Of a stretch of DNA of 64,000 nucleotides, positions 29,979-37,607 are shown in pieces. Both the position numbers and the translations under genes were made by a program. The stretch lies in contig NZ_SJOH01000016.1 of the NCBI RefSeq assembly GCF_004331285.1, forward strand, positions 1 through 64,000, in the 5' to 3' direction. The notes below the pieces were generated by a model. The model was not told where the DNA came from, made no database searches, and worked only from the letters and a program-made list of their open reading frames with translations. The first letter of the stretch is position 1. Every line of letters begins with the position of its first letter. Source of the DNA: Acinetobacter sp. ANC 3781 (lineage in GTDB: Bacteria; Pseudomonadota; Gammaproteobacteria; Pseudomonadales; Moraxellaceae).

Positions 29979-31184
29979 CTAGGTTAGGTTCTCTTGCTTG
30001 CTTTCACTTTCTTCTGGATTACGTTCTTGCACCATGCTAAATGATGTTGCTGTACCAGCTACAGATTGATCATCTCTCGGACTTTTTAATTTGATTTGTA
30101 AGCGTAATTCATTCATGGAATCGGCATTACGTAAGGATTCCTCATAACTAATTGCACCCTGATTATACAAATCAAATAAGGCCTGATCGAAAGTTTGCAT
30201 GCCGAGTTCACGGGATTTCTTCATGATTTCTTTGAGTTCATGCAATTGACCTTTAAGAATATTATCGGCAATTAAAGGAGTATTCAGTAAAATTTCAATC
30301 GCCGCACGACGTCCACGTCCATCTTGAGTACGGACTAAACGCTGTGAAATAATGGCTTTCATATTGGAAGACAAATCCATCAGTAATTGATTTTTTCGTT
30401 CTTCAGGGAAAAAGTTAATAATCCGATCAAGGGCCTGATTGGCATTATTCGCGTGTAGCGTTCCTAGACATAAGTGCCCGGTTTCCGCAAAAGCAATTGC
30501 GTGTTCCATTGTTTCAGTATCACGGATTTCACCAATTAAAATAACGTCTGGTGCCTGACGTAAAGTATTTTTCAAAGCATTGTGCCATGAGTGACTATCC
30601 ACCCCAACTTCACGGTGAGTAATCATGGATTTTTTATGTTTATGTACAAATTCTACCGGGTCTTCAACCGTAATAATATGCCCTGCTGAATTTTCATTGC
30701 GATGATCAATCATGGCTGCTAAAGAGGTTGACTTGCCCGAACCGGTCGCGCCCACCACTAAAATCAAGCCACGTTTTGCCATCATCACATCTTTAAGCGA
30801 TTCAGGTAATTTTAACTGGGCAAAATTTGGAATTTCAGCAGTAATGGTACGAATCACCATACCCACTTGTAACTGTTGTTGAAATACATTAATACGAAAA
30901 CGCGAAACATCGGGAACGCTAATGGCAAAGTTACATTCGAGTTCATTTTCAAATTCCTGTCGCTGCTTTTCATTCATTAAACTATAGGCAAACAGTTTGG
31001 TTTTATCCGCTGTTAGCGCTTGTTGTCCAATCGGTTTCATCATCCCTTGATGTTTAATACTCGGCGGAAAATCTGCTGAAATAAACAAGTCTGAGCCACC
31101 ATATTCCACGACCTTGGTGAGCATATGAAATATTATTTTACGCGCTTCTTCCAATAATTCCGCACTATACATATTTGTTCCCAT
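29979..31184 (-). CDS. pilU: type IV pilus retraction ATPase PilU
   Basis: Hexameric cytoplasmic ATPase of 401 residues that supports PilT in retracting type IV pili for twitching and DNA uptake. It has the N-terminal GGSDLFISADFPPSIK domain, Walker A VVGATGSGKST (about 145), the Asp box ITVEDPVEFVHK, Walker B DVILIGEIRDTETMEHA, the His box TLHANNANQALDRI and a long polar tail (residues 370-401) typical of PilU rather than PilT. No pilT is adjacent here. The start has an MGTNMYSAEL beginning; Met5 is an alternative. Confidence 0.92.
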   Translation of the reverse strand: MGTNMYSAELLEEARKIIFHMLTKVVEYGGSDLFISADFPPSIKHQGMMKPIGQQALTADKTKLFAYSLMNEKQRQEFENELECNFAISVPDVSRFRINVFQQQLQVGMVIRTITAEIPNFAQLKLPESLKDVMMAKRGLILVVGATGSGKSTSLAAMIDHRNENSAGHIITVEDPVEFVHKHKKSMITHREVGVDSHSWHNALKNTLRQAPDVILIGEIRDTETMEHAIAFAETGHLCLGTLHANNANQALDRIINFFPEERKNQLLMDLSSNMKAIISQRLVRTQDGRGRRAAIEILLNTPLIADNILKGQLHELKEIMKKSRELGMQTFDQALFDLYNQGAISYEESLRNADSMNELRLQIKLKSPRDDQSVAGTATSFSMVQERNPEESESKQENLT

Positions 31185-31461: not shown

Positions 31462-32523
31462 TTAAGCACTGCGCTTTAATTGAGAAATACGAAGTGAATC
31501 TACAACTTCTAATAAAAGTTGCTGTGTTTTATCCCACCCTAAACAACCATCAGTAACAGATTGACCATAAGTCATATTACATGAAATCTTTTGCTGACCG
31601 TCCGCCAAATGACTTTCTAACATCACGCCACGAACATGGGTATGAACGCGTTCATCTATAATGGTACGTAAAACTTCAGATTGTAATAAAGGGTTTTTGT
31701 GGCTGTTACCATGACTGCAATCAATCACTAAAGCAGGTAATTCCCCTTTGGTTTTTTCTTTAATTTTTTCAATTTCAGCCAATGCGTAGTTAGGCCCTGA
31801 ATTTGCACCGCGTAAAATCAGATGGGCTTTCGGATTGCCTTTAGACTCTAAAATACACGGTAGGCCAGATTGACTCATGCCTAAAAATTGATGTGGATGT
31901 GCAGCCGATTGAATGGCATCAAGTGCAATTTGAATAGAGCCATCTGTACCATTTTTGAAACCAATGCTGTACGGCATGTGACTTGAAATTTCACGGTGAA
32001 TTTGTGATTCGCTGGTACGTGCACCAATTGCACCCCAAGCCAGTAAATCATCGAAATATGCAGTCGCCATCGGGCTTAAAATTTCAGAAGCAAGGGGTAA
32101 ACCCATTTCTATAATTTGTAAGTATAACTGACGTGATTTCTCTAAGCCCAATTGCATATTCGATGAACCATCTAGATTTGGGTCATACAGGAAACCTTTC
32201 CAGCCAATAGTGGTACGTGGTTTTTCAATATATGCACGCATAACCAGAAAAATTTGATCAGCGATTTGGCTTTGTAATTGTTGTAGTTTTTCAGCATATT
32301 CGAGTGCAGAAATGGGGTCATGAATTGAACATGGGCCTGTTACCACCATTAAACGATGATCTTTGCCATCTAAAATGTTTTGAATAGTTTGACGCTGCTC
32401 GGCAATTTGCTGAGCCAATTTTCCAGATAAAGGCAATTGTGCCTTCAATTGATGAGGCAAACTTAAAATAGTTTCTTTTTCAGGAGTTTGCGTTTGTTGT
32501 AAAGCAGTATTTAAAGCATTCAT
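31462..32523 (-). CDS. aroG: 3-deoxy-7-phosphoheptulonate synthase (class I DAHP synthase)
   Basis: 353-residue enzyme that condenses phosphoenolpyruvate and erythrose-4-phosphate, the entry step of aromatic amino acid synthesis. It has VTGPCSIHDPISALEYA (metal-ligand Cys), MRAYIEKPRTTIGWKG, GARTSESQIHRE, IGFKNGTDGSI, LRGANSGPNY, VIDCSHGNSHK and ESHLADGQQK, all class I AroG/F/H hallmarks. Which amino acid inhibits it cannot be decided. The start has an AGGAAA site. Upstream lies a leader with its own peptide, alternative hairpins and a terminator that should control expression by attenuation (see separate entries). Confidence 0.94.
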   Translation of the reverse strand: MNALNTALQQTQTPEKETILSLPHQLKAQLPLSGKLAQQIAEQRQTIQNILDGKDHRLMVVTGPCSIHDPISALEYAEKLQQLQSQIADQIFLVMRAYIEKPRTTIGWKGFLYDPNLDGSSNMQLGLEKSRQLYLQIIEMGLPLASEILSPMATAYFDDLLAWGAIGARTSESQIHREISSHMPYSIGFKNGTDGSIQIALDAIQSAAHPHQFLGMSQSGLPCILESKGNPKAHLILRGANSGPNYALAEIEKIKEKTKGELPALVIDCSHGNSHKNPLLQSEVLRTIIDERVHTHVRGVMLESHLADGQQKISCNMTYGQSVTDGCLGWDKTQQLLLEVVDSLRISQLKRSA

Positions 32524-32697
32524 TGGTCTTTCCTGGGGACTTTTTCCAGTCCAATCTTTTATTTGAGCGTTATGGGTCTAACGGATTGCGAGGCAAGGGT
32601 CATTACTTGACTAAAATAAAACCAATAGAAGTTACTAAAATATGAGTAGTTTAATGTTTTCATGAAGTAACTCCAAAAGTATATAAAAAATAAAGCA

Positions 32698-32730
32698 TAA
32701 AAAAACCTGATCAGGGTTGCCGATCAGGTT
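32698..32730 (-). terminator. attenuator terminator in the aroG leader
   Basis: On the minus strand AACCTGATC (32722-32730) and GATCAGGTT (32704-32712) form a perfect 9 bp stem with loop GGCAACCCT, followed by a run of T. It lies about 175 bp before the aroG start, inside the leader. The loop contains GGCAACC (32715-32721), which can instead pair with GGTTGCC upstream and would prevent the stem. Confidence 0.85.
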
Positions 32731-32742
32731 ATAAAACTTGGT

Positions 32743-32777
32743 GGGCAACCATTTATTGCCCGAACGCATTCAGGCAA
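32743..32777 (-). promoter_or_regulatory. alternative RNA arms of the aroG attenuator
   Basis: In transcript order there are three arms. Arm 1 TTGCCTGAA (32777-32769) directly follows the leader stop codon. Arm 2 TTCGGGCAA (32764-32756) pairs with arm 1 over 9 bp with one G-U. Arm 3 GGTTGCCC (32750-32743) can pair with arm 2 (GGGCAA/TTGCCC) or with arm 4 GGCAACC in the terminator loop. A ribosome paused at the leader's aromatic codons leaves 1-2 free to form, so 3-4 blocks the terminator. A ribosome at the stop codon covers arm 1, so 2-3 forms and the terminator folds. Confidence 0.75.
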
Positions 32778-32834
32778 CTATCTAAATTGCCAAAAATAAT
32801 AACGTGCGTTTGAGGTGACTGGTTGCTTTAACAT
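32778..32834 (-). CDS. aroG leader peptide (aromatic-rich)
   Basis: 18-residue peptide MLKQPVTSNARYYFWQFR. Residues 12-15 are Tyr-Tyr-Phe-Trp and residue 17 is Phe, so all three aromatic amino acids are sensed within six codons near the end. The TAG stop abuts the first attenuator arm. The upstream sequence is purine-rich (GAAGAAATAAAG) rather than a strong ribosome site. Its position 29 bases into the predicted transcript, directly before mutually exclusive hairpins and a terminator, marks it as a leader peptide for ribosome-mediated attenuation of aroG. Confidence 0.78.
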   Translation of the reverse strand: MLKQPVTSNARYYFWQFR

Positions 32835-32869
32835 CTTTATTTCTTCAAAAAAGTATGTGTATTAAAATT

Positions 32870-32898
32870 AAAATACGCTGTATTCATACATTTGACAA
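32870..32898 (-). promoter_or_regulatory. aroG promoter
   Basis: On the minus strand TTGTCA (32898-32893) and TATTTT (32875-32870) are spaced by exactly 17 bp, a good sigma-70 promoter. The start point would be near 32863, about 29 bases before the leader peptide. Confidence 0.65.
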
Positions 32899-33712: not shown

Positions 33713-34774
33713 ATGAATAAGCTAGCCAACCCTTTAGAACTTTGTGGATTTGAATTTATTGAATTCGTGTCTAAAGATGGAGATCTAGATGAAATTTTTC
33801 AAACCATCGGCTTTAGCAAAGTTGCCAAACATAAATCGAAAAATGTGTATTTATGGCGTCAAGGCAACATTAATATCATTCTCAATTATCAGCCTGAATC
33901 TTATGCAGCGTTCTTCTTTAAAGAACATGGTCCCTCTGCATGCGCAATGGGTTTTAGGACCAAAGATGCCGCGAAAGCATTTAACAAAGCTGTTGAATTG
34001 GGCGCAGAACCGATTTATTCAAAAATCGGCCCAATGGAACTAAATATTCCGGCGATTAAAGGCATTGGTGGCTCGCCTATTTTCTTGGTCGATCGTGATA
34101 TTTATCAAAGTGATTTTATTTTCTTTGATGATATGAATTCGCATCCAGTTGGAACAGGCTTAAAAGAAATCGATCATTTAACCCATAACGTCTACAAAGG
34201 TCGTATGCAGTATTGGTCAGATTTTTATGGGAAAATTTTTAATTTTCAGGAAATTCGCTATTTTGATATTAAAGGTGAATATACCGGTTTGACTTCTAAA
34301 GCGCTCACTGCACCTGATGGGAAAATCCGTATTCCCCTGAATGAAGATTCTGACAAAGGTAATGGTCAAATTGCTGAATTCTTAAACGAGTTCAATGGTG
34401 AAGGCATTCAACATATCGCTTTTATTACCGATGACCTGATTGCGACTTGGGATAAGTTAAAAGCCTTGGGTGCCAAATTTATGACGCCCCCTCCAGCCAC
34501 TTATTATGACATGCTTCCTGATCGTTTACCGAACCACGGCGAACCGACTGATGAACTTCAAAAACGCGGTATTTTATTAGACGGCAATACTGAAGGCGAA
34601 GACAAACGTCTGTTATTGCAAATTTTCTCGGAAAATATGTTGGGTCCCGTATTCTTTGAGTTTATTCAACGTAAAGATGATGACGGTTTTGGAGAAGGCA
34701 ACTTTAAAGCATTGTTTGAATCAATTGAACGCGATCAAATCAAACGTGGTGTACTGGATATTTCAAAAGCCTAA
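33713..34774 (+). CDS. hpd: 4-hydroxyphenylpyruvate dioxygenase
   Basis: Fe(II) dioxygenase of 353 residues that converts 4-hydroxyphenylpyruvate to homogentisate in tyrosine breakdown. It has two vicinal-oxygen-chelate domains. The C-terminal one shows the iron ligands in DHLTHNV (His), [10 protein letters not shown] (His) and [26 protein letters not shown] (Glu). The length is right for the bacterial enzyme. The start has a GAGGAT site. A permease and an aromatic aminotransferase follow on the same strand, which together make an uptake and degradation unit. Confidence 0.95.
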
Positions 34775-34808
34775 TCGCAGTGTGAACATTTAAGTTGTCC
34801 TTTATTTT

Positions 34809-34835
34809 CATGCGCATACATTGAGTATGTGCATG
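34809..34835. terminator. hairpin after hpd
   Basis: CATGCGCATAC and GTATGTGCATG pair over 11 bp (one G-U) with loop ATTGA, 35 bp after the hpd stop. No clean T-run follows, so it may only partly reduce read-through into the permease or stabilise the hpd message. Confidence 0.5.
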
Positions 34836-34968
34836 GAAAATATACATCTTATTTAAATATTTTAATAAAATTTCTGATACTGCTCTGATGATTGCATAAA
34901 ATAAGAATTAGAAATGATCACAATCATCCCGATATAGAGCACTATCTCAGCACGGATGAAGATAGAAA

Positions 34969-36369
34969 ATGCAGCAAATTGAACAAGGAAACCTGAAAAA
35001 AGGTTTAAGTAATCGTCATATCCAGCTGATCGCATTGGGTGGTTCGATCGGTACAGGGCTATTTCTCGGTATTGCACAAACCATTAAGCTTGCTGGTCCA
35101 TCGGTTATTTTAGGTTATGCCATAGCCGGACTGATTGCTTTTTTAATGATGCGCCAATTGGGTGAAATGATTGTAGAAGAACCCGTCAGTGGCTCGTTTA
35201 GTCATTTTGCTTATAAGTACTGGGGCAAATTTGCCGGCTTTATGTCTGGATGGAATTACTGGGTTTTGAATATTCTGGTCTGTATGGCAGAACTCAGCGC
35301 GATTGGTCTTTATATTCATTACTGGTGGCCGGAAATTCCGACCTGGGTTTCAGCACTGGGATTCTTTATTTTCATCAATGTAATTAACCTTTTACACGTC
35401 AAATTGTTTGGTGAAATGGAATTCTGGTTAGCCATTATTAAAGTTCTGGCCATTATTGCAATGATTGCTTTTGGTAGCTATTTACTGGCAAGTGGCAGTG
35501 GTGGCACCCAATCCAGTCTGCAAAATTTATGGGAATTAGGCGGCTTCTTCCCGAATGGTGTCATGGGATTGGTCATGGCAATGGCGATGATTATGTTTGC
35601 TTTTGGTGGCATTGAATTGGTGGGGATTGCGGCTGCAGAAACGGATAATCCGCAAAAAACCTTACCTAAAGCGATTAACCAAATCGTTTACCGGGTCCTG
35701 TTATTTTATATCTTAAGTCTAGTGATTATTTTATCGCTTTATCCATGGAATCAAATGGCACAAGGTGGCAGTCCTTTTGTTCTTATTTTTGATTCTCTGG
35801 GCAGTCAAACCGTCGCAACGATTTTAAATTTTGTAGTGCTGACTGCGGCTGTTTCTGTATATAACAGTACCAATTATTGTACCAGCCGTATGTTGTTAGG
35901 CTTGGCTCAACAAGGAAATGCACCTAAAATTTTAAGTAAAATTAACACGCGTGGTATTCCAGTGAATGCGGTTATGATCTCTGCATTTTTTACATTAATG
36001 TGTGTGTTGGTCAATTACTTATTTCCTGAAAAAGCGTTTAGCCTGCTGATGATGCTGGTGGTTGCAGCGATTGTGATTAACTGGGTGGTCATTTCATATA
36101 CACATTTGAAATTTAAGAAACATAGAATTGCGATGAATGCACCAACGCAATTTCCAAGCATTGCATACCCTTTTACAAATTATGTCTGCATTATCTTTAT
36201 GTGCGGCATTTTGCTGATTATGAGCCAAACCCCTGATATGCGCATTGCGGTACTGATGATTCCCGTCTGGATTGCAGTTTTGTCGATTGCCTATTATTTT
36301 AAAAATAAGAAAATAACCGATCCTCAATTGGCAATAAAAGATAAAATGCGCTCTGTTCCGAAGGCTTGA
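34969..36369 (+). CDS. amino acid permease (AroP/ProY-like, APC superfamily)
   Basis: 466-residue inner-membrane symporter with 12 hydrophobic segments. The amino acid permease signature spans [18 protein letters not shown] and [50 protein letters not shown], with the conserved Glu/Ile segment of helix 6, is also present. It is closest in pattern to aromatic amino acid or proline permeases of gammaproteobacteria. Its position between hpd and tyrB argues for tyrosine/phenylalanine import; specificity is inference. Confidence 0.88.
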
Positions 36370-36401
36370 TTTGTTTACTACATATAACGAAGGATGTATT
36401 C

Positions 36402-37607
36402 ATGTTCCACCATGTTGATACTTATGCAGGTGATCCGATTCTTTCTCTAATGGAAGAATTTGGAAAAGACCAACGCTCTCATAAAGTTAATCTAAGTATT
36501 GGCTTGTACTACAATGAAGACAATATTGTTCCTCAACTCAATGCCGTTAAAGCGGCTTATAAAAATATTGAAGCGAGCAATGATCAGGTCAAGCTCTATT
36601 TACCTATGGATGGCTTGAAATCTTATAATCAAGCTACTCAAGCGCTCGTTTTGGGACAAGAAAGCCAAGCACGTCGTGATGGTCGTGCTGTGACCATTCA
36701 AACTTTGGGCGGTTCTGGCGCACTCAAAGTCGGTGCAGATTTTCTTAAAAAATATTTTCCTGAATCTGATGTTTGGGTCAGTCAACCGACTTGGGAAAAT
36801 CATATTGCCATCTTTAATGGTGCTGGTCTGCATACGCATTTCTATCCATATTTTGATGCAGCAACCAATGGTGTCAATGTGCCAGCGATGCTGGAAAAAT
36901 TAAAACAGCTTCCTACTAAAAGTATTGTGCTGTTACATCCTTGTTGTCACAACCCGACAGGTGCAGATTTAACGCCTGCTGAATGGGATCAAGTGATTGA
37001 AGTATTACAGAAACGGGATCTGATTCCATTTTTGGACATTGCTTATCAAGGTTTTGGCCAGGGTCTGGAACAAGACGCTTATGCCATTCGCGCTTTAGAT
37101 CAAACCGGGATGAATTTTATTGTCAGCAATTCATTCTCTAAAATTTTCTCTCTTTATGGCGAACGTATCGGCGGTTTAACATTTGTCTGTGATGATCAAG
37201 CTACTGCACAAAAAGTGTTAGGACAATTAAAGGCAACAGTACGCCGTATTTACTCAAGCCCTCCAACCACAGGCGCTTTGTTGGTTGATAATGTTTTGAA
37301 TAATGCCGATCTGACTGCTCAATGGGAAGCTGAACTGAAAGAAATGCGCGAACGTATTATTAAAATGCGTCAAATTTTAAATGAAAAACTAAGCCAAGCC
37401 TTGCCTGAGCGTGACTTTAGTTATCTGGTCAAACAGCAAGGCATGTTTAGCTATACCGGTTTAACGGCTGAACAGGTTGATATCTTGAAAGATCAATACG
37501 GTATTTATTTGGTACGTAGTGGCCGTATGTGCGCAGCCGGTCTAAATTTAAATAATATTGATTATGTCGCAGATTCAATTACAGAAGTGATTAAGGCAAC
37601 TGCTTAA
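36402..37607 (+). CDS. tyrB: aromatic amino acid aminotransferase
   Basis: PLP aminotransferase of 401 residues, class Ia (AspC/TyrB). It has the N-terminal [19 protein letters not shown], substrate region [25 protein letters not shown] (Asn binding the PLP ring region), [12 protein letters not shown] (Asp and Tyr) and the PLP lysine in [18 protein letters not shown]; the C-terminal [10 protein letters not shown] holds the substrate Arg. It transfers the amino group of tyrosine or phenylalanine to 2-oxoglutarate and makes the substrate of hpd. A longer frame from 36366 overlaps the permease; ATG at 36402 has a GAAGGAT site and the family-standard start. Confidence 0.93.

Follow-up and report, generated by a model that had tools for sequence, protein, structure and literature searches.

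A putative two-stage attenuator for tyrosine, phenylalanine, and tryptophan upstream of a DAHP synthase gene in Acinetobacter, and its likely counterpart in Pseudomonas sRNA P15

RESULTS AND DISCUSSION

On the minus strand of the window, by which we mean the whole 64,000-nucleotide stretch of Acinetobacter DNA analyzed here, the 375 nt from a putative promoter to a 3-deoxy-7-phosphoheptulonate (DAHP) synthase gene carry a leader peptide, a set of alternately pairing arms, an intrinsic terminator, a second leader peptide, a hairpin, and a ribosome-binding site, in that order. We consider it probable that this stretch senses charged Tyr, Phe, and Trp tRNA in two stages arranged in tandem. The ribosome positions, the read-through on starvation, and the whole of the stage 2 mechanism are what we infer; judging by alignments, the stem of arms 1 and 2, the terminator, and the hairpin after leader 2 hold compensatory changes, and the arrangement is common to Acinetobacter and Pseudomonas. 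Finely balanced, to our minds, is the broader picture in which a single mRNA leader shared by both genera has two successive aromatic-rich open reading frames (ORFs) that gate transcription and then translation of the entry enzyme in response to the same three aminoacyl-tRNA pools, and which would account for the Pseudomonas small RNA (sRNA) P15 as the transcript left when stage 1 terminates.

The DAHP synthase locus

The gene that ends this arrangement (31462 to 32523, minus strand, as for all features of the leader) encodes an aroG-type, type I DAHP synthase, which matches NCBIfam NF009395 and TIGR00034 above cutoff and is thereby a member of the pathway of the sensed amino acids. Its ribosome-binding site, AGGA, was read at 32531 to 32534. 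At the other end, the promoter hexamers with a 17-nt spacer that had been picked out in an earlier reading of the sequence alone are present as a putative sigma-70-type promoter (TTGTCA-17 nt-TATTTT, 32870 to 32898), of a kind of site that is not above chance in the region (9 observed versus 9.9 expected). Across 60 aligned Acinetobacter upstream regions, the −35 hexamer is mostly conserved and the −10 hexamer is kept in a more variable form.

A second type I DAHP synthase gene, 48% identical, lies outside the window (G000:C8:89512-90510, L203), and the terminator motif described below is absent upstream of this other paralog (L192 to L203). Among 99 sampled Moraxellaceae genomes, those of genera other than Acinetobacter each gave no more than a single match to the query (45 to 51% identity), and we take these single matches to be the other paralog. 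Divergent from aroG, on the plus strand at 33713 to 37607, are genes for an HPPD-type dioxygenase, an amino acid permease, and a class I/II aminotransferase, likely functioning in tyrosine breakdown and uptake and adjoining the attenuated synthesis gene. Downstream of aroG, at 29979 to 31184 on the minus strand, is a gene for a type II/IV secretion ATPase (PF00437), presumably a PilT/PilU-like pilus motor.

Stage 1: leader peptide 1, pairing arms, and terminator

Leader peptide 1 (MLKQPVTSNARYYFWQFR, then a stop codon; 32778 to 32834) has aromatic codons at positions 12 to 15 and 17. It can be read directly on the minus strand with the Tyr, Phe, and Trp codons noted in the sequence-only reading, and it has the form MLKQP...YYFWQFR. 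There are 101 distinct leader 1 sequences, many loci being one species fetched from both genome sources. In the commonest form (18 residues, 83 sequences), positions 13, 14, and 17 are always aromatic, and positions 12 and 15 are aromatic in 89%. Between pairs of leaders, 50.5% of the single-nucleotide codon differences are synonymous, versus a random expectation of 17.3%, which indicates that the leader 1 codons are under protein-level selection in Acinetobacter. By these comparisons, leader 1 has the character of the short ORF with end-product codons that belongs to a ribosome-mediated transcription attenuator. Since Phe17 is so close to arm 1 that a ribosome stalled there should cover part of it, Tyr12 to Trp15 are likely the sensing codons, given the size of a ribosome footprint.

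The pairing elements begin within the leader ORF itself. Arm 0 (GGCAA, 32787 to 32791) falls within codons Trp15-Gln16 and pairs with the TTGCC of arm 1 (TTGCCTGAA, 32769 to 32777), which lies directly 3' of the stop codon; 87.3% of cells in this stem are paired among 44 sequences, a figure that includes misaligned rows. Arm 2 (TTCGGGCAA, 32756 to 32764) forms with arm 1 a stem that is 94.1% paired and has compensatory changes in two pairs. Arm 3 (GGTTGCCC, 32743 to 32750) can pair either with arm 2 (96.2% paired) or with arm 4 (GGCAACC, 32715 to 32721; 96.4% paired), which sits at the apex of the terminator hairpin. The three pairings proposed at the outset, namely, arms 1-2 over 9 bp, arms 2-3 over 6 bp, and arms 3-4 over 7 bp, all pair as described. 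An intrinsic terminator with a T run (32699 to 32730) stands between the leader ORF and the structural gene, as in an attenuator, and the 8-bp core of its stem is paired in 100% of cells in the 44 sequences, with compensatory changes in two pairs. It had been described as a 9-bp hairpin with arm 4 as its loop; the terminator itself is present, but its stem (32730 to 32704) is 11 bp long when G-U pairs are counted, and arm 4 comprises the top two base pairs together with the loop.

Two mutually exclusive chains of these arms link the leader codons to the terminator, as expected of an attenuator, with compensatory changes only in 1:2 and the terminator. In the 44 aligned sequences, the chain of 0:1, 2:3, and the terminator has 95.4% of its cells paired, versus 14 to 50% in slid controls, and the chain of 1:2 and 3:4 has 95.1%, versus 28 to 51%. 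None of 500 shuffles attained the stage 1 covariation score or its count of doubly changed cells; pairs with double changes (2 and 2) and pair types were no more numerous than in shuffles (119, 420, 221, and 286 of 500 reach them). Within Acinetobacter, compensatory changes are absent from 0:1, 2:3, and 3:4, though pairing there is conserved.

Computed energies were −28.2 kcal/mol for 0:1 and 2:3 with the terminator, −26.1 kcal/mol for 1:2 with the terminator, and −20.9 kcal/mol for 1:2 with 3:4. This order points to the terminator as the default of ribosome-free RNA once arm 0 is included, and untranslated RNA should accordingly be predicted to terminate. Since 1:2 with the terminator is nearly as stable as the default fold, stage 1 must rest on the order of folding; in this model, the terminator's 3' arm must not emerge until 3:4 has formed. 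From geometry, the 3' arm of the terminator following right after arm 4, the 3:4 helix and the terminator could not both stand complete.

We propose that stage 1 is a transcription attenuator of the his operon kind built from arms 0 to 4. With no ribosome on the leader, 0:1 and 2:3 would form and the terminator would fold. A ribosome at the leader 1 stop codon would cover arm 1, again allowing 2:3 and the terminator. A ribosome stalled at Tyr12 to Trp15, in turn, would cover arm 0 and leave arm 1 free to form 1:2, after which arm 3 would take the terminator apex (3:4) and RNA polymerase would read through. The logic first suggested, with four arms, was of the attenuator kind as well, but four arms alone would have untranslated RNA antiterminate, and arm 0 is needed. 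That earlier interpretation was right in kind but incomplete: newly seen beyond it are arm 0 (32791 to 32787), leader 2 (32663 to 32559) with its hairpin, and the P15 counterpart, the last three of which are taken up below.

Conservation of stage 1 across Acinetobacter

A search for the gene in 175 Acinetobacter genomes and a named collection gave 188 ortholog loci, in 179 of which leader 1, the arms, and the terminator could be parsed by pattern. The nine pattern failures (L067, L083, L089, L121, L162, L106, L129, L151, and L170) have the element by eye, some with weaker pairing: the terminator has a mismatch in L067 and L129 and is shorter in L162, and arm 3 reads ATTGCCC in L106 and L170. 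The terminator motif is kept even in 19 orthologs of only 52 to 69% protein identity. Six of 25 genomes that were searched again had only the other paralog, which is without the motif. Upstream of aroG in L057 is a terminator variant whose apex and stem letters are unlike the genus consensus. With leader codons and stems kept in this way, the original claim is supported across the genus: a DAHP synthase gene preceded by a ribosome-mediated transcription attenuator whose leader has codons for Tyr, Phe, and Trp.

Stage 2: leader peptide 2 and its possible role in the translation of aroG

Downstream of the terminator, preceded by a GGAG ribosome-binding site (32671 to 32674), is a second leader peptide (MKTLNYSYFSNFYWFYFSQVMTLASQSVRPITLK, then a stop codon; 32559 to 32663), found in all 179 parsed loci. 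The rule used for leader 2, an ORF after the terminator with a ribosome-binding site and at least 5 aromatic residues, picked it out in 127 of 127 distinct regions, versus 4.6% of 2,540 dinucleotide shuffles. In roughly 95% or more of the 57 sequences of the commonest length, an aromatic residue occupies each of positions 8, 9, 13, 14, 16, and 17, and 42.1% of single-nucleotide changes are synonymous, versus 18.5% expected. Both leaders are, by these patterns of substitution, conserved as peptides. The last codons of leader 2 (RPITLK, 32579 to 32559) show almost no variation, even at wobble positions, which points to RNA; a search of the organism's own genome for a trans-acting antisense partner of this invariant end, with up to 3 mismatches, returned only the site itself.

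In the main group of loci, leader 2 stops 20 to 45 nt before aroG, and the gap holds a hairpin (GGACT..AGTCC, 32537 to 32552) between the leader 2 stop codon and the aroG ribosome-binding site. Four of its six pairs have compensatory changes in an alignment of 48 of 52 sequences (the other four, L014, L016, L146, and L166, have the start codon set wrongly), a result reached by none of 500 shuffles. The divergent loci L177, L178, L181, L183, L184, and L185 have, by eye, a gap hairpin with other letters. In L174, L175, L176, L179, L180, and L182, leader 2 ends 8 to 17 nt before the likely aroG start, and in L186 to L191 it overlaps that start by about 25 nt in another frame.

We asked how leader 2 RNA might bear on aroG. 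Once RNA polymerase has read through, leader 2 most likely governs the translation of aroG, whether a conserved hairpin follows it or it extends as far as the gene or into it: the leader 2 RNA would mask the aroG start, which would be opened by a ribosome stalling on the aromatic codons of this leader. In an RNAalifold prediction from 64 sequences, the leader 2 end pairs with upstream aromatic codons and the aroG start codon with Ser7-Tyr8 of leader 2, the probabilities being modest (about 0.2 to 0.5). Predicted partners include GGTTT in the Trp14-Phe15 codons (32619 to 32623) with AGACC (32579 to 32575), 87.5% paired, and GCTCAAA at the leader 2 end (32562 to 32568) with TTTAGT (32639 to 32634), 98.3% paired, each with no compensatory change. 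Together the long-range stems of leader 2 are 91.9% paired, versus 23 to 47% in slid controls; compensatory changes occur in 0 pairs, and the covariation score is 0.100 versus 0.101 in shuffles. Because these stems are paired but lack compensatory changes, the comparison is neutral on the long-range pairing of leader 2.

Predicted opening costs of the aroG start were computed for the first 36 of 47 non-redundant Acinetobacter sequences (a set that leaves out L173 to L183, L186 to L191, L088, and L163). The cost was 7.32 kcal/mol with the real leader 2 versus 5.54 kcal/mol with shuffled leader 2, and it was higher in 29 of the 36. A ribosome-sized mask placed at the leader 2 Trp codon brought the cost down by 1.66 kcal/mol versus 0.16 in shuffles (26 of 36); with the mask at the leader 2 stop codon instead, the mean cost was not lowered (7.68). 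For the window itself, the Trp mask lowered the cost from 6.75 to 3.90. L014, L016, and L146 entered this test with a wrong start codon, and a hand count without them gives 27/33 and 25/33; the sequences are related, so the Wilcoxon P values are too small. Among loci of the P15 type, described in the next section, the first 13 gave no group effect of the Trp mask (relief of 0.12 versus 0.07). The full 38 gave a reduction of 0.76 versus 0.10 in shuffles (30 of 38), but real and shuffled leader 2 masked the aroG start to the same extent (6.27 versus 6.30). These modeled folds lend moderate support, short of proof, to translational gating of aroG by leader 2.

Relationship to Pseudomonas sRNA P15

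P15 is reportedly an RNA first described in 2006 by Livny. At Rfam gathering thresholds there was no match in the window, and a permissive Rfam search of a short stretch returned a weak full-length match to the P15 family, RF00627, at 23.3 bits versus a cutoff of 70. Locus L071 scored 33.4 bits, also below that cutoff (L071:5027-5176 additionally has a subthreshold match to Rfam STnc430, at 32.8 bits versus a cutoff of 47). In Pseudomonas massiliensis, P15 (82 bits) precedes the orthologous gene. Above cutoff, P15 turned up in 84 of the 119 genomes searched from the G321 family and in 10 of the 194 searched from the order. We examined 40 P15 loci, made up of one named locus, 14 from the order survey, and 25 others from among the best-scoring of the family survey, four of the 40 being below cutoff. 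All of them precede the same DAHP synthase gene.

The likeness extends to the parts of the element. All 40 P15 loci have a leader 1 (such as YYFGYWFSHRRA), and 38 have a leader 2 (such as MNTTYYRYYRNSDWRFSSALRATQRALPRTLR). The two others, L211 and L215, keep leader 1 and the terminator and are without leader 2 by the rule used, which makes them natural controls for stage 2. By a rule requiring at least 4 bp and −3 kcal/mol, 32 of the 38 P15-type loci with leader 2 have a hairpin between this leader and the aroG ribosome-binding site; L090, L212, L213, L214, L216, and L217 do not. Arm 3 pairs with the terminator apex over 6 to 9 bp in the 40 P15 loci, with changed letters as in L217, a pairing that 9% of shuffles also attain on average. 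The 5' end of the RF00627 model falls in the aromatic codons of leader 1, so that the last leader codons are inside the model.

A model built from Acinetobacter alone, R1, was tried on 20 P15 loci and matched 18 of them at the P15 position and on the P15 strand; the E values, which are rough, reach 0.15 and are below 0.001 in nine of the 18. L211 and L216 were unmatched. When R1 was used to look for other copies in 19 genomes, it gave many weak matches; six places were read, and by eye each is an ordinary terminator and not a leader, with one of the six following tRNA genes.

The window element and P15 thus share their position before the same DAHP synthase gene, the leader codons at the 5' end of the model, the alternating arms, and the pairing of arm 3 with the terminator apex. 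They differ in that the window falls below the 70-bit cutoff and that P15 is catalogued as an sRNA. By the cutoff, the window element is not a member of RF00627, but these likenesses suggest that the two are most likely one family. Because the same arrangement in Pseudomonas contains P15, P15 is probably the terminated product of the stage 1 attenuator there.

Alternative explanations

The main rival to translational gating is simple coupling, in which stage 1 would be the sole sensor and leader 2 a coupling ORF whose ribosomes guard the RNA against Rho or RNases or, on terminating, are handed to aroG, the hairpin bringing the leader 2 stop codon close to the aroG ribosome-binding site. We regard this as rather unlikely, though several features of the loci suit it: the close approach of leader 2 to the likely aroG start in six loci and its overlap in L186 to L191, the longer gaps that are usually filled by a hairpin of variable loop length, and the long-range masking stems without covariation. 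Coupling would, however, leave without a reason the strong aromatic bias of leader 2, which is kept through large changes in the peptide, and it would lower aroG expression just when aromatics are scarce; masking and relief above those of shuffled leaders in Acinetobacter also speak against it.

For stage 1, leader 1 might act as an arrest peptide and not by codon-specific stalling, and conservation in Acinetobacter does extend beyond the aromatic residues to the N-terminal MLKQP and to C-terminal residues. Yet the number and order of the aromatic residues shift by lineage (YYFWQFR, YYFWQFFR, YAYFWHFR, and YYFGYWFSHRRA), which suits codon sensing, and the conserved Gln16 codon coincides with arm 0, so that we hold an arrest peptide to be quite improbable. 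Slightly less credence still goes to P15 and its Acinetobacter counterpart being trans-acting small RNAs or a metabolite riboswitch. Rfam does file P15 as an RNA gene, "Pseudomonas sRNA P15," and a riboswitch has been suggested for P15 from gene order (PMC2527527). Such a role, however, sits poorly with the place of all 40 P15 loci before the DAHP synthase gene together with an aromatic leader ORF, with the last codons of that ORF inside the Rfam model, and with the protein-level selection on the leader codons in Acinetobacter. A terminated leader, once released, could act in trans as a side role. An attenuator that senses aromatic codons in tandem leaders remains our preferred reading, and it is this reading that we set beside known systems.

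Comparison with known attenuators

In the his attenuator of enterobacteria (arms A to F), ribosome-free RNA terminates and stalling shifts the register of pairing. Stage 1 resembles it in its odd-even chain of arms, its predicted termination without a ribosome, and its shift of register on stalling; it differs in that the antiterminator of Acinetobacter pairs with the apex of the terminator and not with its 5' arm and in that three amino acids are sensed instead of one. The pheA and trp leaders encode a short peptide rich in end-product codons and have an intrinsic terminator before the gene. Those features are found here too, but the Acinetobacter leader combines Tyr, Phe, and Trp codons, precedes the pathway entry enzyme, and has a second leader after the terminator. 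The mgtCBR leader of Salmonella has two short ORFs, and in erm-type translational attenuators a ribosome stalled in the leader frees the following gene's start. The Acinetobacter leader is like the former in having two regulatory ORFs and like the latter in the mechanism we infer for stage 2, and it is unlike both in that its two ORFs carry codons for the same three amino acids. Proteobacterial attenuators are said to have been treated by comparative genomics by Vitreschak in 2004.

Closer to the present gene, predicted cis-regulatory RNA motifs have been listed before the DAHP synthase genes aroH and aroF of Shewanella, with a table entry for aroF, "Attenuator sensing tyr-tRNA," that cites E. 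coli work (PMC2659441). In the portion of that report consulted here, these motifs are given with no leader peptide and no tandem arrangement, and they belong to another genus. In the open-licence PMC literature that was searched, no attenuator turned up for this DAHP synthase in either Acinetobacter or Pseudomonas. The novelty suggested in the sequence-only reading is reduced, since Rfam already lists the Pseudomonas version as sRNA P15, though without this function. The less usual features of the system are the sensing of three aromatics at the pathway entry and the presence of a second aromatic leader after the terminator.

Significance

Our reading gives a testable function to an RNA, P15, that is filed in Rfam as an sRNA, and it would mean that, in Acinetobacter and Pseudomonas, all three aromatic amino acids are sensed where the shikimate pathway begins. 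Other "sRNAs" located just before biosynthetic genes may merit rereading in this light. Finally, the locus may be a case of two leader ORFs acting in series, as gates on the transcription and then on the translation of one gene.
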